Virus record (IMG/VR): IMGVR_UViG_3300036770_004468
Coordinates: 1 to 38,996 of that record
Length of the DNA: 38,996 nucleotides
DNA from: a virus
Reading direction: 5' to 3' (one strand)
Position 1 is the first letter of the stretch, and every line of letters starts with the position of its first letter. Shown here piece by piece: positions 1-38,996 of this stretch. Below the pieces are notes generated by a model. That model saw only the letters and a program-made list of their open reading frames with translations. It did not search any database and was not told the DNA's origin. The translations under genes and the position numbers were made by a program.

Positions 1-127
1 CATGAGCCTCGACCGGGATCCGCGCGCCAGGCGCAAAGCGATGCCCCTCACTCTCGAACCACCGCCGCACGGTTTCCCAATCGGCGCGGACCTGTTCAGG
101 AGCATCGGCGGCGAGCGCGTCGGCCCG
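1..127. repeat. Terminal direct repeat, left copy
   Basis: These 127 bases are identical to 38870-38996. The same reading frame of the giant minus-strand gene runs through both copies, so the ends join into a circle without loss of frame. A length of exactly 127 is a common maximum k-mer size for short-read assemblers, so this is best read as assembly overlap of a circular or circularly permuted molecule rather than a biological terminal repeat. Confidence 0.95.
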
Positions 128-3100
128 CAATTCTTCCAGCCAGAGGTGGCCGGATTCATGCAGAAGCGACGAAAGGTCATGCCCCTCGAACAGGCGGATC
201 ACCGCCCGGCCATCGCGCTGAAAATCGATCCGGGCGCGCGGTTTCGACTCCCCGCCCTGGAACAGGGAGAAGCCAGCCTTTGCCGCTTCCGCCATTTTCG
301 GGGTGACATCGAAGCCCCACTGTTCGGTGGTTGCCGCTTCGCGCATCGCAGCCGCGCCCCGTTCGGCACTGTTCGCGTCACCATAGAGCCGCTCGGCCCG
401 GCGATCATCGACCCCCGCCAGCGCGTCCGCATCACGGCGAGCGACCTCGGCATCGGCCAGCATCTGATCCGCACGGGGAGTCGGATCAACGACCGACACC
501 CGCGACACTTTAGCTCCATATTTCTTGATTAGGTTGTTTGCGATGTTGACGAGGTTACGGTCGTAGAACGCCCGCATGCCTTCACCGCCGACGCGCAGGT
601 CCTCCTCGCCTTCGATGGAGAAGAACTGCCCCCCAGCGCCCTCCGCTCCCTCCGCCAGTTTCGCGCCGATCTCCCGACCGAACGCGACATCAAGCTGCTC
701 GCGGGTCATGTGCATGTCGCCGCGCGAACCGCGCGTCGCCATGCCATTGTCGAGGATCGAACGGGCGGCGGCGGTCTTTTCGACGATCAGGTCGAAGCCC
801 CCATCGGGCGCGACGGCGGCGCGAACAAACCCCACCGCCTCGGAGAGCGAATAGCGTTCAGCCTGTTGATCGCCGGTCGTCCAGGCGACCGACGCGTAGC
901 CATTGTCAGCCGCCCAGCGAATTACGCGCTTCATGACGAGCGCGGGCCAGGTGGTCTTAAACGGAGCGTCGGGGATGCCGCCGCCTTCCAGCGCGTTGCG
1001 GTAAGCAACCTCCGCCTCGGTGACACGCAGGTTTGCCGTGCGCAGATCGGCCACCACCTTATCCGCCTCGGCGCGGATATCGTTCGAGAATCCTTCACCG
1101 TCCATGTCCCGCACGACGCGCAGCCGCAGCGCGACCTCGGCATAGGACGCCCGTTCATCCAGCGGCTGGTCCTTGAGGACAAACCCATCGAAGCCGCGCT
1201 CAGGCGCGGGAGGCTCATCAGCCGGCAGCAGGTCCAGCCGCGCGCCGAGAGCGATAGCTCGCTCCTGCGCCGCGCGCTGGTTCGCGACAGCTTGCTCCAC
1301 AGCCTCGCTTGCGCGGGCCAGCTCTTCCGGGCGCGGAATGGCGTAGCCTTGATCGCGCCCCTTTTGATGCCAGTCGGACTGCACCTCCTCAACGAACAGG
1401 ACCGGGCGACCTTCCGCATCCCGCTTCCCTTGGAAGCGGACATGCGCGACGACGCCGGGCTGATCCCAATGGGTGTCCGGGGCTTTCTTCGGATTGCGGC
1501 CCTGCCCGAGCGGCAGGGTGATCAGCAACTCGCGGTAGGTTTCCGTCGCCTCCCCGGTCGAGGTGTATTCAGCGAACTGCGTTACCGCACCGACATTGAG
1601 CTTTGCCTCCGCTTCGAAGTCCTCGACATCCCGCATATCGCGGACATCGCTCTCGATCCGCCGCCGCTGGTCGCGTTCCCATTCCCGCTCGGCATCCGCT
1701 TCCGCGTCCGCGCGCGCCTCCTCGGCTTCCGCAAGGGTTTCATAGGTCCAGCCGTCGAAAACGAAGCCGTCCTCGGTTTCTTCGACCGTTTCCCAGAGGC
1801 CAGGAAACATATCATCGGCGTCGCTGAGGATCTGCAGCGTGTGCCGTTCGACCCAAGCATCATACAGCCGCTCCGCTTCCCGCTCGACCGCGCGAGCATC
1901 ATAGCTGCCCAGGACGATCTCGCTGACACGGATCCCGCCAGAGCGGACGAACTGCTCGATGTCGGTTCGCGACACCGCGCCCGGCTGTTCATCGAGCCAC
2001 TCGATCAGGCCGGACCATTCGACCTCTTCCGCCTTCACCCCCGGCGCATTCAGGATGGTGGCTTTCCATTGCTCCGCCGACGCCTTGGCGGTCTTGGACG
2101 TTGCGACCGTCTGGAGCAGCGCCGAGTAGAAAGGGGGATGTTCCGGCTGCGATTGATAGAAGGAGACGGTCCCATCGTCCGGCCCCATGCGACGGTCGAC
2201 CAGGTCGGCAATCGCCTCCGGCAGCAGGAGATACTCCTCATCGAACCGCGCCCCCTGATAGCCCATATCAGCCAGCACAGGGGCAACGAACGACGAGTCG
2301 GCCCACAGCTCATAGAAGTCCGAAAAGGCGTCCGCGTCCCCGCGTTCAAGCGCCTCGGCAAATTCGACATCTTCGGGATAGGTGCGCCGGGCCACCGCCG
2401 CCGCGAACGCTCGCCCAGCTGCCCCGCCCTCGCCGCCGCGCCCAGCGCCGATATCGACGATCAGGTCCGCCGTTTCCTGCGGGACCCAGAACGTGTAGCG
2501 CCATGGCCCGAAGTCGGATCCCATTGCATCGGAAAACTCAGCGGTCCCGAAATAGTTTGCCATCATGCCCTGAGGCCGGCCACGCGGCAGACCTTGCGGC
2601 CCGTTGTGGTGCAGGACGATATCCGACATGCCGGGGGGAGGCTCATCCCATGCGCGCATCTGTTCGAAGGTTCGCGACACCGGCCCGCCGCGCACCTCAT
2701 TCACCGCCGCGCGGATCGCTTCCAGCGGAGCCTCGTCAGGGTCGATGCCCCGCAATTCGAGATAGGAGCGAAGCTCGGCGGCATCGCCGCGCAGCTTCGC
2801 GTCTGTGGCGATCCCGCCATCCCGCATCATCTCGGCGGCATAGACAGGATCCCCGCGCAACTCGCGATCAATCGCGTCGAGCAGAACGTCCACCCCAGCC
2901 AGCTGGTCATAGCCGCCCGAGCGGTCGAGCAACTCGGGGAAGTAGCCCGCGTCGATTGCGTCTTGCAGCAGAATGTCGGGCGAATTGGCGGACGACCCGC
3001 GCGAGCCGAGCATATCGCCCTGCTCGGTCGACGTCTCCTTGATCAGCTTACGCCGGAACGGCGCACCCAGATGCCAGCGCGCGCCGCCCATGCTGGCGAT

Positions 3101-5161
3101 ATCGCCGCCGCGATCTTCGATCCCGCCGCGCAGCGATATCCACTCCAGCAGCGAAGGCCCGCGCAACGTCGCCTCAGACGCCGCTGCCTTTTCCCGGCGC
3201 ATGACGTTCACCAGGCGGTCCAATTCATCCGCCTGCTCATACGGGCGGAGCGCTTCCGGAAGATCGGTCACGATCCCCGCAACAGAGTCGTTGAACAGGG
3301 TCCACGCATCAGTGCCGCGCTGCGCGGCCCGAGCGGCGTAGCGCGCCGCATACAGGTCGGCATAGGCCCGAGCAGCGTTTAGCGACTTCCCCGACTGCCG
3401 GGCTTGCGACAGGACCTCATCATAGACCCGCTGGGCCGGGGCTTGCTGTTCGCGCAGGGCGCGGTCGAAGTCCGCAGCCTCCTGCCCGCGTTGCTCCATG
3501 ATGGCCGCGTAGGACTGCTCAATCGAGCGCGCCTCGGCCAGCGACATGCCGCCAGGCGAAAGCCGCACCGAATCGCGCCACGTTTCCCACCGATTGCCCT
3601 GCGAGAAATGCGATACCGCCTGCCCGATTGGCACGACGACATCGCCCCCGATTGCCGAGGCTTGGTCGATTTGTTCGGCAAACTGGCTCCAGAACGGATC
3701 GGCTCGATAATCGCGCCCCTCCCCCTGAAAGAAGGACTGCACCGCATCGGCAGGAACAAAGACGTTCTCGACCGGGGTGCCTTCCGCCTGCGCCTGCACG
3801 AACTGCGCGAACCCTTCCGGATCCCGCTTTGCCAGCTTCGACTCCATCCCCAGACCAACAGCCTGATCGATGAACTTTGCGCCGGCCAGCGCTTCCAGTC
3901 GCTCGGAAACCTCCTTGCGGTCGCGGCGAAACGCCCGCGCCACGCCGGACGCGCCAGTGATCGCGCCGCCAGCGATGACCGTTGCGACAGCAGTGTCGAA
4001 CGCGGCGCGCGGGCGTTCAGCCCAATAGTCCGCCCAGGTCTTGTTAGGATTTGCGATGGCAGTGTCGACCGCATCCTGCCCGAGCGTTGCCAGCTGCTCG
4101 GTCCCCATCTCGCGAACGAGATAGCCGCCCAGAAACGCGCCGATTCCCTCCTTGCCAAAGCGGCTGGTCAGGAAGCCGAGCGGGAGCGCCTCGGTGACGC
4201 CTTCGATTGCGCCCTCGGCCACGCCGCCGACCAGCGCCTCGTTGCGCGTTGCGCCGCGCGTGCGATACTTGCCGTAGGCGCTCGAACCGGTCTGCGCGGC
4301 GATCAGGGTGAGCAGGCTCACGCCATCGGTGAACGGAGCAGCCAGCAGCGCTGGAGCCATCTGGGCCAGCGAGGACAACCCCCCATAAACCGCCTGCCCG
4401 GTGGGAGACGCGATGACCGGACGGTTTGCCAAGGCGCGCTCCCGTCCGCGCTCCGCCGCATCCTGATAATACCGGAACACCCCGTCGCTGCCCTTTGCGT
4501 TCGGGTCGATGATGTTCGGATTGTCAGGCGACCCCGCGCCCATGGCATCCAGCAGATAGAGCGCGGTGCCATAATAGGACTGCTTGAAGCCTTCGACCGT
4601 ATCCGTGGCCAGCCCCGACCACCAGCTGCCAAACGACGAGCCGGGGCGGCGGCGGTCGATGTCCGCCAGGCGCATAGCCTCCCGCGATGCCGTCCCGCGC
4701 AGATCTTCAATCAGCTGCTGGCCCGAGCGCGGGCGGAACGCTTGCTCCCGCAATTCACGAACGAACGCCGGCCGCGTCGCGCCGGGCAGCGAGTCGGACG
4801 CCGCAGGACCGAACCACATCGAGAACGCGCCGAGCGGCTCGATGTCATCGACCGCCGCCGCCGCGTTACGCGGCTGGGCGAGCCACGGCTGCAGCTTCGG
4901 GGCAGCGCCGATGATCTGGCCGGCACGACGCGCGCGCTGCTCCGCTTCGAAGCGCGGCAGGTTGCGCTGCACAGTCTCGGGCGGCACCGACATGCCCCCC
5001 ATCGCCCCGGTCGCGCGCGCGATCTCGTTTGCCCGCGCAGCCTCCTCCGCCCGCCGACGCTGGGAGTCGAACACGCGATAGGCGATCCGCGCCTCCTCCT
5101 CCGCGCGCGAGGTTTGAGTACCGACCTGCTCGATGGCATCAGACAGCCAGTCCTGTTTCAC
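1..5161 (-). CDS. Giant polyvalent internal virion protein, N-terminal part (residues 1-1720; continues across contig end)
   Basis: An open frame starts at GTG 5161, overlapping the preceding gene's stop (GTGA), and runs off the left edge. On the circle it continues in frame to a stop at 35301, giving about 2,909 residues. Visible parts: Arg/Glu-rich N-terminus; hydrophobic Gly/Ala-rich stretches around 245-450; a segment from M845 (MSDIVLHHNG) loosely like an ADP-ribosyltransferase fold; EVQSDWHQ at 1259-1266; WTTGDQQAERY from W1427, which I recall as recurring in large phage polyvalent proteins; and HESGH at 1668-1672, a HExxH zinc-metallopeptidase motif, with E1721 and E1728 as possible third ligands. 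It follows the gp14-like and transglycosylase genes, the place of T7 gp16, so it is probably packaged and ejected with DNA. Role as ejection or polyvalent protein is inference; the long frame and motifs are seen directly. Confidence 0.9.
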   Translation of the reverse strand, partial: MKQDWLSDAIEQVGTQTSRAEEEARIAYRVFDSQRRRAEEAARANEIARATGAMGGMSVPPETVQRNLPRFEAEQRARRAGQIIGAAPKLQPWLAQPRNAAAAVDDIEPLGAFSMWFGPAASDSLPGATRPAFVRELREQAFRPRSGQQLIEDLRGTASREAMRLADIDRRRPGSSFGSWWSGLATDTVEGFKQSYYGTALYLLDAMGAGSPDNPNIIDPNAKGSDGVFRYYQDAAERGRERALANRPVIASPTGQAVYGGLSSLAQMAPALLAAPFTDGVSLLTLIAAQTGSSAYGKYRTRGATRNEALVGGVAEGAIEGVTEALPLGFLTSRFGKEGIGAFLGGYLVREMGTEQLATLGQDAVDTAIANPNKTWADYWAERPRAAFDTAVATVIAGGAITGASGVARAFRRDRKEVSERLEALAGAKFIDQAVGLGMESKLAKRDPEGFAQFVQAQAEGTPVENVFVPADAVQSFFQGEGRDYRADPFWSQFAEQIDQASAIGGDVVVPIGQAVSHFSQGNRWETWRDSVRLSPGGMSLAEARSIEQSYAAIMEQRGQEAADFDRALREQQAPAQRVYDEVLSQARQSGKSLNAARAYADLYAARYAARAAQRGTDAWTLFNDSVAGIVTDLPEALRPYEQADELDRLVNVMRREKAAASEATLRGPSLLEWISLRGGIEDRGGDIASMGGARWHLGAPFRRKLIKETSTEQGDMLGSRGSSANSPDILLQDAIDAGYFPELLDRSGGYDQLAGVDVLLDAIDRELRGDPVYAAEMMRDGGIATDAKLRGDAAELRSYLELRGIDPDEAPLEAIRAAVNEVRGGPVSRTFEQMRAWDEPPPGMSDIVLHHNGPQGLPRGRPQGMMANYFGTAEFSDAMGSDFGPWRYTFWVPQETADLIVDIGAGRGGEGGAAGRAFAAAVARRTYPEDVEFAEALERGDADAFSDFYELWADSSFVAPVLADMGYQGARFDEEYLLLPEAIADLVDRRMGPDDGTVSFYQSQPEHPPFYSALLQTVATSKTAKASAEQWKATILNAPGVKAEEVEWSGLIEWLDEQPGAVSRTDIEQFVRSGGIRVSEIVLGSYDARAVEREAERLYDAWVERHTLQILSDADDMFPGLWETVEETEDGFVFDGWTYETLAEAEEARADAEADAEREWERDQRRRIESDVRDMRDVEDFEAEAKLNVGAVTQFAEYTSTGEATETYRELLITLPLGQGRNPKKAPDTHWDQPGVVAHVRFQGKRDAEGRPVLFVEEVQSDWHQKGRDQGYAIPRPEELARASEAVEQAVANQRAAQERAIALGARLDLLPADEPPAPERGFDGFVLKDQPLDERASYAEVALRLRVVRDMDGEGFSNDIRAEADKVVADLRTANLRVTEAEVAYRNALEGGGIPDAPFKTTWPALVMKRVIRWAADNGYASVAWTTGDQQAERYSLSEAVGFVRAAVAPDGGFDLIVEKTAAARSILDNGMATRGSRGDMHMTREQLDVAFGREIGAKLAEGAEGAGGQFFSIEGEEDLRVGGEGMRAFYDRNLVNIANNLIKKYGAKVSRVSVVDPTPRADQMLADAEVARRDADALAGVDDRRAERLYGDANSAERGAAAMREAATTEQWGFDVTPKMAEAAKAGFSLFQGGESKPRARIDFQRDGRAVIRLFEGHDLSSLLHESGHLWLEELRADALAADAPEQVRADWETVRRWFESEGHRFAPGARIPVEAH

Positions 5162-7329
5162 CGGCCACCTCGCGGGCCGAGCAGGTAGATGCGGTTAATT
5201 TCAGCGTTGCTCGGCTCCCGCCCGAACCGCGCCCGGTATTGCGAGATGATCGCGCTGCGCGCCGCATTCGGAATGTTATAGCTTCGACCGACCACAGCCG
5301 CCCCTCCCTCGACTTCGAATGCATACCCGAGCTCGCGCCGTTCACGCCCCTGCTCATAGACCTTGAGCAGCTGCCGGTCGGCGATGGCCGCGATGGTATC
5401 ATCATCCGGCAGCTTGCCGGGGTTCGCCTTTTGCCAGATTGCAATGTCCGCCGCGACCGCAGACCGGAACTTACCGACGCGCTGGGCATATGCCTGCGCG
5501 GCTTCCGGCGACACGCGAGTGCCGGCAGGCTTCGCGATCCCCGCCGCCAGTAGCAGCGGATTGGTCACCGAGCGGATCCGCTCATGCGTTACCTGCTTGT
5601 CATCGCCACCGGACCTGCCCCCAGCCTGCAGCGCAGACCGCCGCCAGCCCATGACCTCCTCGAACTCCGAATCGCTCAACTTCCCCCGCAATTCAGCAGG
5701 CGAGCGGCGAAGGAATTGCGCCGGATTGGACGCATACTCATCCGAGTAGGTGCTATACGCAGACCAGTCGGTCCCGCGATCAGCGTTCAGATTGCGCTCC
5801 GCCATGTTGCGGAAGAACTCGCGCTGGCGCGGATCGAGCTGCCGAACAACCGAAGGCGGGAGTTGGTCGATGCTGGTGAACCCCTTCCCCAAGCCTTGCG
5901 CCACTTCGAACGCCTGATCTTCCGCCGCCTTGCGCTGGCGCTCAAGCAGCGACTCATCGAGCGCGACGCGCCGCGCCAATTCGGCGCGGACGGCTTGCTC
6001 CTCGTCAAAGGGCAAGTTGAGCTGATCGACGCGCGCCAGCAGCTTTGCCATATCATGCTCGCGGGGCTGCTGCTGAACGCCGCCGCTCCCGCCGAGCGCG
6101 GCCAGGTTCCCCCGGACATAGGCTTGCGTTTCCTGCGGCAGCTTGTCGACGACCAGCCGCCCACCGTTCGCCTTGAGGTGGTTGTCGAGGTTCCCCGGCC
6201 CCCAATTATACGCCGCCCACGCCTTCGCGGGATCGTTGCCGTATTTGTTCATGAGCGCGGCCAGATAGTCCCGGCCCACGCGCGCGTCATCTTCCGGCGT
6301 CCCGTTCGAAGGCCGCACCCCGAAACCCGGATCGCGCTGGGTGCCGGGCATCACTTGCATGATGCCCTGCGCCCCCTTCGGACTGGTTATCCGTCGACCG
6401 CGCGAATCCGTTTCGCGATTGCCGCTTTCCGCCATCGCGGTGATTTGCACCATGCGCGGAAGGACCTCACCAGCCGCTACAGCGCGGCCAGACGAGACAT
6501 CGACATCATCGACGGTGCCGAGCAGCATATCGACCACGCCCGACGCCTTGCGCGCCAGCAGCGGGCGATACAGCGCGCCCGCCATATCGTTTGCCGCATC
6601 GACATCCATCTCATCGCGGTGCCGCGCAAGGAACGCCGACGCCTTTTCGACCTCCCCTTGATCGATCAGCCCCGAGATGGTTCGCCGATAAACGTTGGTC
6701 ACGGACTCCTTTTCAGCCCGAGCCAGCACATCATCCGACCAGCCGCCTTTAACCGCCTGGTCGCGCAGCTCGGAGCGGATCCCTGCAAGCGCCTTTTCCC
6801 GCCGGGTGTCATCGTTCCAGTAGGTTACGGCATCATTGCCATGCTCGGTCAGGAGCGCCAGGCTTTGCCGCTTTTCCTCCGCCAGCAATTCACGCTGGGC
6901 ATGGCGCGCGACCCCTTCCAATTCAGGGCCGAACCGCGACTCCGCCGCCATGTCATAGATACGGCGCTGCCGCTCGGTGGTCAGCGCCGCGCGCGCCGCG
7001 TCGCGCCGAGCCTTGACCTCTTCCTCCAGCGGCTTGCGACCGTTCGCGGCATTGAAGCCCTGCGATTTGAAATAGGCATTCTCACCGGTGTGCAGCCGCT
7101 CACGGATCCACTTGGCATCTTCTGCGTCCGCCCGCTTGACCGCCGCCATGTCGAGAGCGTTATCGATTCGCTGCTGTTCATCGGCATAGGTCTGAACGAA
7201 CGCGCCCGTCTTTTGCAGCGCCTCGCCGATTTGCGCCGCGCCTTCATAGATGCCAGCCGGACGGAGCGATTGCGACGGCAGGCCCTGCAGCGCAGGACCC
7301 GACCCCGAGACAACAGGAACCCGCGCCAT
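5158..7329 (-). CDS. Virion-associated lytic transglycosylase (internal/ejection protein)
   Basis: This 723-residue protein starts at ATG 7329, coupled to the upstream stop as TAATG. The middle carries a soluble lytic transglycosylase domain: MAESGN supplies the likely catalytic Glu, followed by SPKGAQGIMQVMPGT and then AAYNWGPG, the order typical of SLT/lysozyme-like folds. The flanks are helical and Arg/Glu/Ala-rich, as in podovirus inner-core proteins. It sits between the gp14-like gene and the giant protein, the position of T7 gp15, though in T7 the transglycosylase is in gp16. Likely role: opening peptidoglycan locally during DNA entry. It is distinct from the lysis-module endolysin at 31041-31664. 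The domain call is firm; packaging in the virion is inferred from gene order. Confidence 0.88.
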   Translation of the reverse strand: MARVPVVSGSGPALQGLPSQSLRPAGIYEGAAQIGEALQKTGAFVQTYADEQQRIDNALDMAAVKRADAEDAKWIRERLHTGENAYFKSQGFNAANGRKPLEEEVKARRDAARAALTTERQRRIYDMAAESRFGPELEGVARHAQRELLAEEKRQSLALLTEHGNDAVTYWNDDTRREKALAGIRSELRDQAVKGGWSDDVLARAEKESVTNVYRRTISGLIDQGEVEKASAFLARHRDEMDVDAANDMAGALYRPLLARKASGVVDMLLGTVDDVDVSSGRAVAAGEVLPRMVQITAMAESGNRETDSRGRRITSPKGAQGIMQVMPGTQRDPGFGVRPSNGTPEDDARVGRDYLAALMNKYGNDPAKAWAAYNWGPGNLDNHLKANGGRLVVDKLPQETQAYVRGNLAALGGSGGVQQQPREHDMAKLLARVDQLNLPFDEEQAVRAELARRVALDESLLERQRKAAEDQAFEVAQGLGKGFTSIDQLPPSVVRQLDPRQREFFRNMAERNLNADRGTDWSAYSTYSDEYASNPAQFLRRSPAELRGKLSDSEFEEVMGWRRSALQAGGRSGGDDKQVTHERIRSVTNPLLLAAGIAKPAGTRVSPEAAQAYAQRVGKFRSAVAADIAIWQKANPGKLPDDDTIAAIADRQLLKVYEQGRERRELGYAFEVEGGAAVVGRSYNIPNAARSAIISQYRARFGREPSNAEINRIYLLGPRGGR

Positions 7330-7859
7330 TACATACCACCCCAGCCGGTGCCGGTGCCGAATTTCTTGTCATATTGGACCTTGCCATAGCGCTGCGCGCC
7401 GCCGGCAATCGTTGATCCCAGCTGCAACGCCCCGCTCACCAGCGCCGCGCTACCGCGATTGCGCGCCGCGATAGCCTGCGACCCGAAATTGGCAGCGTTG
7501 ATGTCGAAGCCCATCATCTCGCGCCGCGTATTCTCGCGCAGCGTCAGCCGTTCCTCCTGCGCAGCGACGGCAGTGTCCGCCAGCAGGTCGGACGCCGTGC
7601 CGAACGAGACGTCAATACCGTTCGCCGCCATCGCCGCGCGTTGCGCGCCGATGATCTGCGACTGCCGCCGCGCAGCATTGCGAACCTCGATGTTCCCACG
7701 TTCGAGCGCGTCCGCCGCCTTCCGGCTTTCAAGCTCGCGATTATAGTCGGCGACGCGCGCCTCATACCGCGCCTGCGCGTTCGCCGCCAAAGACGATTGC
7801 ACAGTCCCCGCCGCAGCGAGAGCGGTGGCCGCGATGGTCAGAGTGCCAGGGTCACACAT
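7329..7859 (-). CDS. Internal virion protein, T7 gp14-like
   Basis: A 176-residue protein beginning MCDPGT, with a hydrophobic Ala-rich N-terminal segment (about 8-30), a long Glu/Arg/Ala-rich helical middle containing AMAANGIDVSFGT, and a Gly-rich end (GTGTGWGGM). This pattern matches the gp14/internal virion protein B type of podovirus ejection proteins, which insert in the outer membrane during DNA delivery. The start ATG 7859 overlaps the upstream gene by eight bases; the stop TAA shares a base with the next ATG. Assignment rests on N-terminal pattern, size and position, not on a catalytic motif. Confidence 0.7.
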   Translation of the reverse strand: MCDPGTLTIAATALAAAGTVQSSLAANAQARYEARVADYNRELESRKAADALERGNIEVRNAARRQSQIIGAQRAAMAANGIDVSFGTASDLLADTAVAAQEERLTLRENTRREMMGFDINAANFGSQAIAARNRGSAALVSGALQLGSTIAGGAQRYGKVQYDKKFGTGTGWGGM

Positions 7860-8310
7860 TCACACCCCTCCAGAAAGGAACGAACCGGACGCCGCCGATC
7901 AGCACGGCATCATCCCCCACTTCAAAACCCAGCCGCTCGAGTAACAGGATGGCCCGAGCGTTATCCGCAGATACTACATTCTCAAGCCGCCGAAAGCTAC
8001 CGTGCATCGCCGCAACGACGCGCGGGCCATATTCGAGCAGCGCGCGCGATTGCCGCATCACCTCATCGGTCCCGAGGAACCACGGACACCCAAGGCTCGA
8101 CGCCAGCGACACTGGCGACACACCCATCATCGCATGCGGGGAGCCGTCGACCATCGCAGTCAGCGCCATCGATGAAGCGGCCAAGCTGAAGCGCAGCGCG
8201 GCATGGGGCGAGCGCCCCTTAGCCGCGCACTCGACCCGATCCGCCTCGCGCATCCGGGTTGCGATCCGCCCGACATGCGCCCGCGTCGCCGGGACCAGAC
8301 GAACACTCAC
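7852..8310 (-). CDS. GNAT-like protein, T7 gp13/internal protein A type
   Basis: This 152-residue protein begins at GTG 8310 in a GTGA overlap with the nozzle gene. VRLVPATRAHV at the N-terminus and NARAILLLERLGFEVGD near the C-terminus are typical of the beta-1 strand and final helix-strand of GNAT acetyltransferases; ALTAMVDGSPHAMMGVSP fits the central strands. Podoviruses commonly have such a protein just after the nozzle gene, counterpart of T7 gp13, with a role in virion assembly rather than proven acetylation. The canonical acetyl-CoA loop (Q/RxxGxG/A) is not evident, so it may be catalytically inactive. Confidence 0.65.
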   Translation of the reverse strand: MSVRLVPATRAHVGRIATRMREADRVECAAKGRSPHAALRFSLAASSMALTAMVDGSPHAMMGVSPVSLASSLGCPWFLGTDEVMRQSRALLEYGPRVVAAMHGSFRRLENVVSADNARAILLLERLGFEVGDDAVLIGGVRFVPFWRGVNV

Positions 8311-13648: not shown

Positions 13649-14416
13649 TTACTTTTCGCCGCCATAAAACACGTCGGCATCGGACTTGCGTCCCCCTTGG
13701 CCCGCCCCATCGCTGGGAACGAAACCACCCTCACCCATCGCCTTGCCGGCGCGGGACAAAGCACGGAGCAGCTCAACATGGTTGCCGATGCCGCTGTCAT
13801 CGAGCAGCTGCCGGAACCCGGTGCCGGGCTTGATGCCCATGGCGTTCCAGAACTGCGCGACCAAATCCACGGTGCGCTCGAAATTGGCCCCGCCGATCTC
13901 CGGATCGGCGCGGGCCTCGTCCGCCAGTTGCTTGCGAAAGGCGACGTTCGCCTCTTGCTGCCGAGCCGCGCTGCGCTGTTCGAGCAACGGGAGGACTTTC
14001 TCCGCATAGGCGTTGACGATGGTTTGCGCCGCAGGACCCGACAGGTCCAATTCGCGCAGGACCGGCTCGACCGCTTCGAACGCTTCCGCGTCGAAGGTCA
14101 TGCCCTCGGGAGCCGCGATCTCATATTTTTCGGGAGCGCCCAGCGTTGCGGGCTTTTGTTCGCCCTCCTCGCCATCCTTGGCGGCGTCGGCTTCCGCGCC
14201 TTCCGGCGCAGCCTCGCCATCGGTCGGCGCGTCGGCTTCCGCGCCAGCGCTTCCAGCGATGCTGGTAACCTGTTCACCGCCGGCGACATCGGCCGCAGAG
14301 TTGCCGCCGTCCGCCGTCTGTTCGGCACCAACGGGCGCGTCAGCGGGCGCGGCGACATTGGCAGCGGGCGGGGTTTCAGGCGTCGAGGTCGAGGTCGGGG
14401 TCGTTTCGGTGGTCAT
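13649..14416 (-). CDS. Capsid scaffolding protein
   Basis: 255 residues from ATG 14416, preceded by AGGAG at eight bases; an upstream in-frame start would add about 30 residues of unrelated character and is rejected. The N-terminal 95 residues are Thr/Pro/Ala/Glu-rich and disordered; the C-terminal half is helical and charged (for example LPLLEQRSAARQQEANVAFR), ending with a basic tail. An acidic helical protein between portal and major capsid genes is the classic scaffold arrangement. No protease motif is seen. It overlaps the end of the Bbp19-like gene by 41 bases. Confidence 0.82.
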   Translation of the reverse strand: MTTETTPTSTSTPETPPAANVAAPADAPVGAEQTADGGNSAADVAGGEQVTSIAGSAGAEADAPTDGEAAPEGAEADAAKDGEEGEQKPATLGAPEKYEIAAPEGMTFDAEAFEAVEPVLRELDLSGPAAQTIVNAYAEKVLPLLEQRSAARQQEANVAFRKQLADEARADPEIGGANFERTVDLVAQFWNAMGIKPGTGFRQLLDDSGIGNHVELLRALSRAGKAMGEGGFVPSDGAGQGGRKSDADVFYGGEK

Positions 14417-35300: not shown

Positions 35301-38300
35301 CTATTGTTCCTGATCCTTTTGCGGCCCCTTGATGACACCTTTGGCAACATCGCCGGCATCTTCCGGCTGTTGCTCGCCGATTGCCCAATCGTAGAGATAT
35401 TGCGCTGTCGCGCCGACCTGCCCGGTGGGAAGCCCAACGAAATAGCCGGGCGCGGTGATTGCGTTCTGCAGCCAGCGGTCGGACGGTTCATCCCCCTGCG
35501 CGACCTTGAGCAAATCCGAACCGGGGCGCATCAATTCATCGAAGGCCCGAACGATGGGGGTGGTTGCGCTGAAGGACGGCTTACCCATCACCTTGCGCTC
35601 GACAGTCCCCATGACGTCGCGGATCACCGGCACACCCATCCAGAGGCCAAAGAACATCTTCCGCATGGCCCAGAGGAACCACGACTCCTCGGATTCCTCA
35701 TCCGGCCAATCCCCGGTCAGGAACGCGCCGACGACCGGGGCGACCATCAGCACCCAGAAGGTAGTGCTTGCCGCCTTGCGCCAATCGCCCGCGCGCGCCG
35801 CATGGATGGCCTCGCGCTGCTGGTTATATTGGACGTTCCAGTAGGAGTAGAACAGCGTCATCACGCGCCACGCTTCCGACCCGCCCTGCAGCGCGGAAAG
35901 GTCCGCCGCGCGGCCAGACGACTGCGAACGCCGCACCGCCTTATCCGCAAAGGCGATGGCTTCCGGTTCCGACATTCCCTCATCGAGCGCGCGGCGATAC
36001 CCGCCGAACCAAGTGGGCATGTCGACGACGAACAGCTGGATGTTACCGATCCCCCAGAACGCGGCGGCGCGCGCCTTGTCGAGCGCCCCGCTGCCTTCCG
36101 ACAGGTTCTGGAAGAATTGCCGGACATCGCGGTCGAAGTCGGTCGCGCGCTCCGCCATCATTGGCGAGCGCGTGAACACAAAGTCGCGCAGCTGCCCAAA
36201 ATTTCGGGCCATGTCGGCAGCGCCGAGCGCAAGGTATTTCGGGCCAACCTCGCGCGCCGAGACAGCCAAACCGCCTACCTGAGCCAGCATGGTGGTGAAG
36301 CGGAACCCCAGCCCGACCAGGGTAGCGTTGACGCGAAACTTGCGCATCAGGCGGTCGATAGCCGCCAGCTGCATGGTATCCATTGCGGCATCGTTCACCT
36401 GCCGGTGAAGCCAGGGCTTGATCTGCTGGCGATATTCACGGCCCAGCTTCCGGTCGATCAGATCCCGGATCTTGGCATGCCCGACAAACTTGAGCGTGTC
36501 TCGGACCCAGCGACCATAGGCGATGCGCGTCGCAACCCGGTTCACATGGTTGAACAGAACCCCCTCAAGCGAGAGCATCAGCGGAGCCGCCGCCTCGGTG
36601 CGAGTGATGGTGTGGCCCTTTGGCGTCGAAACGACGCGGCCCATCTGCCCCATCATCTTGACCGCATCGTCTTCATAATTGGCCTCAGCCATCGCCGACC
36701 GGGTCGGGTCATAGACCACCGGGAAATAGCCCCCGTTGATCGCGCCGAACTTGGTCTGCACGATCCGCGGCTCAACCTTTTCCGGCTTGATACCGGTGAT
36801 CTCCCGCTCGGCCCGAACCACATGCGGCCAGAGCGAATCGATCTCGCGCCACACCGCCTGCACGAACTGCCAGTCCGCCTCGTTCATCTCGCGGTCGAGG
36901 ACCGCCATGACTTTCTCAGCGGTCCAGGCGTTCGCATCCGAAAGCCCCCGGCTTTCGCCACGGACCAGCTTGGAGAAATTCGACTCGTTGCCGACATTCA
37001 GCGCAATGGTCAGGATCTCCGAACGCTCGAACACGGTCGGGGTCTCTTCCAGCGTTTCCGGGTTGCGGTTCATCAATTCCGGAACCACGACACGCTCGCG
37101 CATGCGGCGCTGCTGCGCCTTCGACATGCCGGTGTAAAGCGACGCCAACGGCTTGAGCACAGTGTCCAAAAGCCGCTGCTTTTCGTTCGCCGCCTCCTGC
37201 GAGCCTTGCACCAGCAGGCGGTTGAACACGCCGTTGACGTTGCCGTTATCGAGGTGATCGGCGAGGAACTCCATCTTGACCAGCGCCGCGTCGATGCCGC
37301 GCGCCCGGCTGCGCAAATCAGGGCGCTGGTTGCGATCCGCAGTGAACTGGCGGGCCGGCAGGCTTTCAGCCTGCGCGACCGCCTCGGCGACCACATCCTC
37401 AAGCTCGGCCTCCTCCTTTGCCAGAAGGAGTTTCTTTTTCCGCCGCCCGAGGTGTGCAATCGACTGCACGGCATCATCGAGGCCGACCAGGTCGTCGACC
37501 GTCACATCCTTGAAATTGGTCCGCTGGAAATCGGCCAGGCGAGGCGGGATAAAGACCTCCTCGCCCTCGGCCTCGCGCGCCGCCACCCAGGCACCGAACG
37601 ACACCCGCTCCGCGCGGTCGCGCCGGGATCGCGGCTTGAAGTCGAAGGCTTCGAGCAGATCATGGATGCGATCCAGATAGTCCGGATCCATGGACGGCAG
37701 GGAGCGAGCCTTGGCATACTTCCCCATCCGCCGGACGATGACGTCCACCTGATCTTTCGCCGCCTTGGCAGCGCGCCACAATTCGCGATGGTGCAGCTGG
37801 CGTTGCTTCGCCACCAGCGCCGCCGCCTCATCCCCGCGCCGCAGTGCGTCCTCCGCTTCGCGCGCCGCCTTGGCCTCATTGCGTTGATGGCGAGCAAGCG
37901 CCGCCGCCGTTGCCTGCTCGCCCACCTTCCCCTCGCGAACGGTTCGCTGCGCCCATTGGCGCACGACATTTACCGGAGAAGGAACCTGGTCACCTAGTCC
38001 GCGCCGAATGCTATCGCGGCGGGTTAGGAGCCTGATCTCGGTGGCGATGCGTTCTGACGCCTTGTCGGAGTTGATCGCGGCCAGCGCCTCCTCTTCGATT
38101 GATCCATCGTTGAGCAGGTCGCCATACCGCTCCAGCATCGAGGCGTCGGTGCCGATGTCGATTGTTTCCTGAAGGACCGACCGGCGATCTTGCTCCACCC
38201 GCAGCTCGCGCTGCCGGCGCTCGATGCCCATGAGCATGTCGACCATCTCGCCGCCAGTGCGGAAGCCCGACATCTCCGCCAGCACATCGGGATGAACACC

Positions 38301-38996
38301 CCCGCTTTCGACGATGGTCGGCGGGATGCCGCGCGGCATCAGGACCACCGCGTCGCTTCCGTACTCGTTGACGAACGCCTCGCGGTTCAGCTGCACCCGC
38401 TGCCCGCCGCGCCCGCGCAACAGCGCGAGCGCGCGGAACTCGGGACGATTGCGGACCTGCTCCTCGACCTCGCGCCGCACCGCTTCCCGGTTACGCTTCC
38501 ATTCCGCAGTCCGCTCGCGGCGGATCGCTTCCATCGTCTTGAACAGCAGCGCGTCGAACGCTTCCGTTCGAACAGTCCGCATCGAGTCCTCATAGGCCGC
38601 GAACTCGGCATCGGTCATGCCCGCCTCGGCGGCAGACTTGAACAGCAGCTGCGCGCCGGGCTCGGCTTCCGCCTGCGCCAATTCGGTCTCCGTCGCGAGC
38701 ATGCGGTCCATGACGCGACGGACATCATCGGTCAGCGGCGCATTGAGATTGACGACCAGCTTATAGATGCGGAGCAGCCAAGCCCGGAACGAGGCGAACG
38801 CCGACTGGAGCGCCGGCGTCGGTGCCTTGCCCTCCATGAAGTAGCGCTCCATGCCGCGCGCCCACATTTCATGAGCCTCGACCGGGATCCGCGCGCCAGG
38901 CGCAAAGCGATGCCCCTCACTCTCGAACCACCGCCGCACGGTTTCCCAATCGGCGCGGACCTGTTCAGGAGCATCGGCGGCGAGCGCGTCGGCCCG
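35301..38996 (-). CDS. Giant polyvalent internal virion protein, C-terminal part (residues about 1679-2909)
   Basis: Continuation of the gene that starts at 5161; the 127-bp end repeat keeps it in the same frame. After the HExxH region come PLTDDVRRVMDRMLATETE (typical of large phage polyvalent proteins), long Arg/Glu-rich helices with many coiled coils, then NHVNRVATRIAYGRWVRDTL and a hydrophobic C-terminal segment (TFWVLMVAPVVGAFLTGDWP; RKMFFGLWMGVPVIRDVM), which recalls the C-terminal LPD38-type region of such proteins. Stop TAG at 35301, 51 bp before the fibre gene. A start assigned at 38939 would be an artefact of the contig cut. Confidence 0.9.
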   Translation of the reverse strand, partial: RADALAADAPEQVRADWETVRRWFESEGHRFAPGARIPVEAHEMWARGMERYFMEGKAPTPALQSAFASFRAWLLRIYKLVVNLNAPLTDDVRRVMDRMLATETELAQAEAEPGAQLLFKSAAEAGMTDAEFAAYEDSMRTVRTEAFDALLFKTMEAIRRERTAEWKRNREAVRREVEEQVRNRPEFRALALLRGRGGQRVQLNREAFVNEYGSDAVVLMPRGIPPTIVESGGVHPDVLAEMSGFRTGGEMVDMLMGIERRQRELRVEQDRRSVLQETIDIGTDASMLERYGDLLNDGSIEEEALAAINSDKASERIATEIRLLTRRDSIRRGLGDQVPSPVNVVRQWAQRTVREGKVGEQATAAALARHQRNEAKAAREAEDALRRGDEAAALVAKQRQLHHRELWRAAKAAKDQVDVIVRRMGKYAKARSLPSMDPDYLDRIHDLLEAFDFKPRSRRDRAERVSFGAWVAAREAEGEEVFIPPRLADFQRTNFKDVTVDDLVGLDDAVQSIAHLGRRKKKLLLAKEEAELEDVVAEAVAQAESLPARQFTADRNQRPDLRSRARGIDAALVKMEFLADHLDNGNVNGVFNRLLVQGSQEAANEKQRLLDTVLKPLASLYTGMSKAQQRRMRERVVVPELMNRNPETLEETPTVFERSEILTIALNVGNESNFSKLVRGESRGLSDANAWTAEKVMAVLDREMNEADWQFVQAVWREIDSLWPHVVRAEREITGIKPEKVEPRIVQTKFGAINGGYFPVVYDPTRSAMAEANYEDDAVKMMGQMGRVVSTPKGHTITRTEAAAPLMLSLEGVLFNHVNRVATRIAYGRWVRDTLKFVGHAKIRDLIDRKLGREYRQQIKPWLHRQVNDAAMDTMQLAAIDRLMRKFRVNATLVGLGFRFTTMLAQVGGLAVSAREVGPKYLALGAADMARNFGQLRDFVFTRSPMMAERATDFDRDVRQFFQNLSEGSGALDKARAAAFWGIGNIQLFVVDMPTWFGGYRRALDEGMSEPEAIAFADKAVRRSQSSGRAADLSALQGGSEAWRVMTLFYSYWNVQYNQQREAIHAARAGDWRKAASTTFWVLMVAPVVGAFLTGDWPDEESEESWFLWAMRKMFFGLWMGVPVIRDVMGTVERKVMGKPSFSATTPIVRAFDELMRPGSDLLKVAQGDEPSDRWLQNAITAPGYFVGLPTGQVGATAQYLYDWAIGEQQPEDAGDVAKGVIKGPQKDQEQ
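38870..38996. repeat. Terminal direct repeat, right copy
   Basis: Identical to 1-127; see the left copy. The gene reading through it continues in frame at position 128 of the window. Confidence 0.95.

Follow-up and report, generated by a model that had tools for sequence, protein, structure and literature searches.

Results

A giant gene joins the two contig ends

The window analysed here is a viral stretch of 38,996 nucleotides (positions 1 to 38,996 of IMG/VR virus record IMGVR_UViG_3300036770_004468). Its first 127 bp are repeated exactly at its end (1-127 = 38870-38996), so we treat it as a 38,869-bp circle; the length of the repeat looks like an assembler k-mer overlap. On this circle, one minus-strand gene runs from 5161 to 1 and then from 38869 to 35301 (8,730 nt, 2,909 aa, 321.6 kDa; Table 1). 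The original prediction, made from the sequence before this analysis, had proposed such a gene of about 2,909 residues, leading leftward from 5161 across the contig ends to 35301 and filling about a fifth of the genome. Both points held: the joined frame has no internal stop across 2,909 codons, compared with a longest stop-free run of 449 codons in 30 shuffles, and the gene takes 22.5% of the circle. The interval 1-5161 given for it was correct but covers only the first 59% of the gene. Translation starts at a GTG at 5161, which overlaps the transglycosylase gene by 4 bp and has a ribosome site, GAGGTGG, just upstream at 5165-5171.

The danger recognized at the outset, a stop or frameshift in the joined frame, did not materialize. 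Besides being stop-free, the frame is colinear with that of a homologue on a separate contig, L013, where an intact 2,935-aa open reading frame is 61% identical to window residues 1-2908 and aligns without interruption through the window's contig junction (aa ~1720). Because this homologue is uninterrupted across the junction, the join is not an artefact. The sequence motifs noted originally are present where they had been placed (HESGH at 1668-1672, EVQSDWHQ at 1259-1266 and WTTGDQQAERY at 1427-1437), and the hydrophobic C-terminal region could be located to a segment at aa 2753-2771; two weaker segments lie at 271-289 and 390-408.

Table 1 Features of the giant gene and its upstream neighbours, in window coordinates
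Feature	Position	Strand	Evidence
Giant gene, first part (aa 1-1720)	1..5161	-	open frame, GTG start
Giant gene, second part (aa 1721-2909)	35301..38869	-	open frame, L013 alignment
LPD22 domain (aa 29-111), N-terminal chassis	4829..5077	-	domain profile; in 53/58 homologues
Conserved N-terminal core (aa 260-623), with the two weak hydrophobic segments	3293..4384	-	profile mapping
aa 634-824, partly conserved, precedes cargo insertion point	2690..3262	-	homologue comparison
Cargo slot (aa 825-1641)	239..2689	-	size and content differ among homologues
aa 840-1000 of cargo	2162..2644	-	only L013 has a close homologue
EVQSDW/WTTGxQQ module (aa 1005-1635), predicted GNAT-like fold with coiled-coil insert	257..2149	-	pattern scan, alignment, model
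EVQSDWHQ, predicted beta-4 end and next loop	1364..1387	-	motif, model
WTTGDQQAERY, predicted beta-5/alpha-4, motif-B-like	851..883	-	motif, model
Zincin, first part (aa 1642-1720), HESGH at 146-160	1..238	-	motif, alignment
Zincin, second part (to aa 1786), conserved AHExWARGxExY region	38673..38869	-	alignment
C-terminal chassis region (~aa 2250-2627), L013 model resembles T7/PhiM1 internal core proteins	36150..37283	-	model comparison
Hydrophobic segment aa 2753-2771	35718..35774	-	hydrophobicity
723-aa protein with SLT transglycosylase domain, immediately upstream of giant gene	5158..7329	-	domain profiles
T7 gp14-like internal virion protein	7329..7859	-	PF24072, phrog_418
Small internal virion protein	7852..8310	-	phrog_308

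The giant protein is of the Bbp10 type

The gene directly follows those for the gp14-like and transglycosylase proteins, as had been claimed. Both ends of its product match phrog_9880 (E 5.8e-79 and 4.3e-303), a family whose annotated function is unknown. With the giant protein as query, tblastn matched 42 phage records, 37 of them with at least 80% coverage. Among the homologues are BPP-1 Bbp10, AF gp16, Carin1 gp32, CP2 ORF24, the 'lysis protein' of JessA and a protein of HU1, and in all six phages a structural lysozyme or transglycosylase gene and internal virion genes immediately precede the homologue. The records annotate these proteins as hypothetical, 'lysis protein', 'lysin' or 'beta/gamma crystallin'. 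Given homology along the N-terminal core and the C-terminal ~1,250 aa, together with the shared gene position, we class the product of the giant gene as a polyvalent ejection protein of the Bbp10 type, which is already a known kind. Bbp10 itself differs in having a variable region of only ~190 aa, compared with 1,018 in the window, and in lacking the EVQSDW/WTTG module described below. The papers searched contained no report of the giant protein or of Bbp10-type proteins in virions, and no virion proteomics for this phage or for such proteins.

Genome relatives of the window are mostly from Sphingomonadales, which suggests a host in this order. Scanning IMG/VR for exact peptides from the protein's C-terminal part gave no match, although an alignment query did find relatives; sequence searches of the PDB with the window protein returned nothing useful. 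Separately, Limnohabitans phage DC33 (PQ492659.1) is recorded as Inoviridae, yet it carries a 3,125-aa homologue and a podovirus-type gene order. Elsewhere in the window, the frame at 19862-21289 matches profiles of both ParB-like nuclease and DNA methyltransferase and is probably a fusion of the two, and 14167-14245 holds a 34-bp direct repeat, imperfect, with its copies 45 bp apart.

Constant ends flank one variable slot

To describe variation in the family, 84 non-identical full-length homologues were mapped with profiles of window segments. The stretch that begins at the N-terminus and closes with the N-terminal core was nearly fixed in length (median 624 aa, SD 37), as was that from the zincin-type metallopeptidase to the C-terminal end (median 1,257 aa, SD 30). 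The slot between these flanks, just before the zincin, ranged from 29 to 2,394 aa (SD 536). We quote the standard deviations because the proportion of length explained by the slot (r2 0.99) is partly true by construction. The same pattern was seen when prophages were included (101 members). Constant ends around one middle slot are how members of this family vary, which is a new finding. The size of the protein, at about twice T7 gp16, had been taken as unusual; it is ordinary for the family, whose members span 1.8-4.3 thousand aa (1,839-4,254), and we rejected size as a sign of novelty.

Slot and flanks also differ in content. Scanning 58 slots identified 20 Pfam families, many of them effectors, including ART-PolyVal (16), the RNase family PBECR5 (9), LPD3 (6), GNAT (4), RadC (2) and zeta toxin (1), as well as GGDEF and SAM lyase; many slots had no named domain. 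The N flanks of the same 58 proteins contained LPD22 in 53 cases plus two single weak matches, and no Pfam family matched the 39 C flanks scanned. Every ART match in the homologue records falls inside the giant frame. The original suggestion of several host-directed domains is supported at the level of the family, in whose slots ART, RNase, GNAT and zeta-toxin domains are found. In the window, the cargo comprises ~817 aa, mostly a predicted GNAT-acyltransferase-like module, and ends ~6 aa before the zincin.

All 39 aligned members share the zincin's HExxH motif and, downstream of it, two invariant glutamates; in the full set, about 98 of 101 members retain HExxH. The metallopeptidase sits in the near-constant part of the protein and is not a lineage-specific effector. 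In three members (L103:7565-14068, L156:4937-13498 and L176:4291-12633), the HExxH half has been replaced by cargo while the following conserved part is kept; since at least 3 of 101 members are without this half, any self-cutting by the zincin cannot be universal. L104/L181 also looks aberrant.

Cargo is exchanged between near-identical phages

Phages with near-identical giant proteins (flanks mostly 93-99% identical) carried different cargo or clean insertions. L113, L114 and L115 share C flanks at 97-99% and N flanks at 85-93% identity, yet their slots hold, respectively, PBECR5, no named domain, and RadC plus DUF7178 plus the EVQSDW/WTTG module. Only the first ~190 residues and the last dozen or so of these slots are common to all three; besides these shared ends, L114 and L115 have one distant 27% match. 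L140 differs from L137 by an insertion of ~206 aa with LPD3, directly before the zincin and between flanks that are 95-97% identical, and both states were each seen in more than one contig. The same kind of LPD3 insertion distinguishes L121 from L120. Across an approximate tree of the C-terminal chassis (FastTree, 98 members), the EVQSDW/WTTG module is present in 19 members and requires at least 14 presence changes. Cargo is exchanged, not merely diverged.

The RadC domains in the L115 and L161 slots are in phage proteins; a survey of polyvalent proteins lists RadC solely in those of conjugative elements (PMC5512222).

The window cargo contains a predicted GNAT-like module

EVQSDWHQ and WTTGDQQAERY do not mark separate domains but proved to be two motifs of one mobile module of ~630 aa. 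A pattern scan of IMG/VR found module relatives encoded in 380 viral stretches. They occur in slot-bearing homologues, in proteins of 700-800 aa and in giants of 4,500 aa, and a jumbo-phage protein contains two; no module turned up in plasmids. Two loci, L046:6983-18205 and L011 6193-13356, encode it twice in one protein. The shorter proteins (L031, L033, L061, L090 and similar) end in the module, with ~200 aa of uncharacterised sequence before it and no recognised zincin.

No named Pfam or NCBIfam family covers the module. An alignment of 45 sequences has 24 invariant residues, among them E1259, D1263, R1412 and Y1533, and an AlphaFold2 model of aa 860-1640 (mean pLDDT 85) resembles known acyltransferases: GNATs dominate its best structural matches (SpNatD, Z 10.1; KacT, 9.5; AtaT, 9.4; human GCN5, 9.2), and many GNATs score Z ~8-10, in alignments that cover model residues ~218-770 and the entire GNAT domain. 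The model follows the GNAT order of strands and helices (b1-a1-a2-b2-b3-b4-a3-b5-a4-b6-b7), with long insertions, one of them a predicted coiled-coil hairpin between the strand that ends in EVQ and the next core helix. By this comparison, we infer that WTTGDQQAERY may lie at the place of GNAT motif B and GRDQGYA, after predicted beta-4, at that of the acetyl-CoA loop. Of the R/Q-x-x-G-x-G/A motif expected there, the window has R-x-x-G, and the final G/A is not conserved in the family. Foldseek gave no significant match for the model in the PDB and 26 in viral predicted structures, none of them named as GNAT. By sequence, the window protein has no Pfam GNAT match, and the module profile finds no PDB sequence. 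We describe the module as a predicted GNAT-acyltransferase-like fold, for which acyl transfer may be the activity.

Adjoining the module, aa 840-1000 are unassigned cargo for which L013 alone gave a close homologue. An ART domain had been suggested here by eye from HHNG, NYFG and GYQGARFDEEYLLLPEAI, and was rejected: PF18760 (ART-PolyVal) did not match at E 10, and a profile of the region compared with the ART domains of homologous slots gave a probability of 0.2%; nor did additional homologues lend it support. The AlphaFold2 model begins at aa 860, inside this region, and is no fair fold test of ART there.

A possible resemblance of the C-terminal chassis to T7-type core proteins

A model of the C-terminal chassis built from L013 (pLDDT 82) matched the PhiM1 ejectosome (Z 6.8), T7 core proteins (Z 6.4 and 5.2) and E1004 (Z 5.6). 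These matches extend over ~190-225 residues, with Z below the tool's safe level for helical proteins, and Foldseek found no significant match in the PDB. Matches to MFS transporters were taken as chance helical bundles. The scores are modest, but the repeated appearance of ejection and core proteins agrees with the gene order and suggests a possible resemblance to this class. With T7 gp16 and the PhiM1 tetrameric ejection protein, the giant protein has its gene order in common and, judging by a modest match of the C-terminal model, possibly a fold. It is, however, more than twice as long as T7 gp16, contains a zincin and a cargo slot, and has its transglycosylase in a separate gene (the SLT domain of the upstream 723-aa protein). 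Because a T7 gp16-type transglycosylase domain is absent from the polypeptide, we do not file it as a gp16 member.

Discussion

We think it probable that the product of the giant gene is the large ejection (internal core) protein of a podovirus resembling BPP-1, built as a fixed chassis with a single slot for effector exchange. About 624 aa at the N-terminus and ~1,260 aa at the C-terminus make up the chassis, and effector domains would be exchanged in the slot that they enclose. Inside the head, the protein would be packaged alongside the transglycosylase, gp14-like and small internal proteins, to thread out with the DNA, its gp16-like C-terminal part helping to form a channel at the inner membrane. 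Cargo would then be presented inside the cell, perhaps freed through cutting by the zincin, and would modify host molecules early in infection. The broader proposal, of a large family of podovirus ejection proteins with one exchangeable early-effector slot, swapped between near-identical phages and with an unrecognised GNAT-like acyltransferase family, present in many phages, as one common cargo, seems to us evenly poised.

Parts of this arrangement have precedents. Iyer et al. 2017 described polyvalent proteins together with the zincins that they carry and the injection proposed for them (PMC5512222), and the giant protein shares with these its disparate domains, zincin-like metallopeptidase, LPD domain and late virion neighbourhood. 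The label 'polyvalent' used from the start is apt, with LPD22, the zincin (HExxH and the conserved E motif) and the predicted GNAT-like module together in one chain. The architectures in the sections of PMC5512222 consulted are, however, variable, and these sections describe neither a single slot in a constant ejection protein nor the GNAT-like module. N4 virion RNA polymerase is likewise a giant protein that is ejected, in which an enzyme sits between other regions and a zincin-like domain is present (PMC5512222), but its cargo is one conserved polymerase; the likeness drawn here is one of architecture. Jamet et al. described virion-borne polymorphic MuF toxins of temperate phages, which also join a virion-associated constant part to exchangeable toxin domains (PMC5576092). 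In MuF toxins the cargo is C-terminal on a MuF head protein, whereas the giant protein carries it internally, on an unrelated chassis; the window protein has no MuF domain match. The consulted sections of both papers (PMC5512222 and PMC5576092) do not describe ejection proteins of podoviruses with one internal slot.

Other readings of the slot and its cargo have to be weighed. The slot could be a tolerant structural site. What it takes up would then be elements that serve packing, spacing or the organisation of DNA, or neutral passengers, and would have no target in the host. Natural slots of only 29-44 aa indicate that a working chassis can dispense with cargo, and the many slots without named domains fit as well; but the contents that can be named are mostly conflict enzymes (ART, RNase, GNAT, zeta toxin, SAM lyase), of which the flanks carry none, and the module retains invariant active-site-like residues. 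We consider a purely structural slot unlikely. Somewhat more doubtful still is that cargo acts, MuF-like, in or from the producing cell or lysogen, in competition or superinfection exclusion and not in early take-over. Related loci do occur in Sphingobium, Novosphingobium and Sphingomonas genomes, and MuF toxins set the precedent of virion-borne toxins in temperate phages (PMC5576092), but both the location of the gene, among those for internal virion proteins, and the gp16-like model of the C-terminal part favour delivery coupled to DNA.

The near-constancy of HExxH raises a further reading, to which we give equally little credence: that the zincin does the work, as a protease directed at the host or at its own chain, with the module as only its regulator or prodomain. 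The module does usually end a few residues from the zincin (at most 26 aa in 13 of 19 module-bearing members). Against this, many proteins of 700-800 aa have the module but no recognised zincin, most zincin-bearing members have no module, and some members lack HExxH.

If an exchangeable effector slot is the correct reading, the slot would amount to a catalogue of effectors that podoviruses send into cells before phage gene expression, and reading what lies between the fixed flanks would uncover effectors, unnamed ones included. Near-identical pairs that differ in cargo alone are natural isogenic sets for cargo function, and the GNAT-like module would give a phage domain that is widespread but unnamed its first function open to testing.
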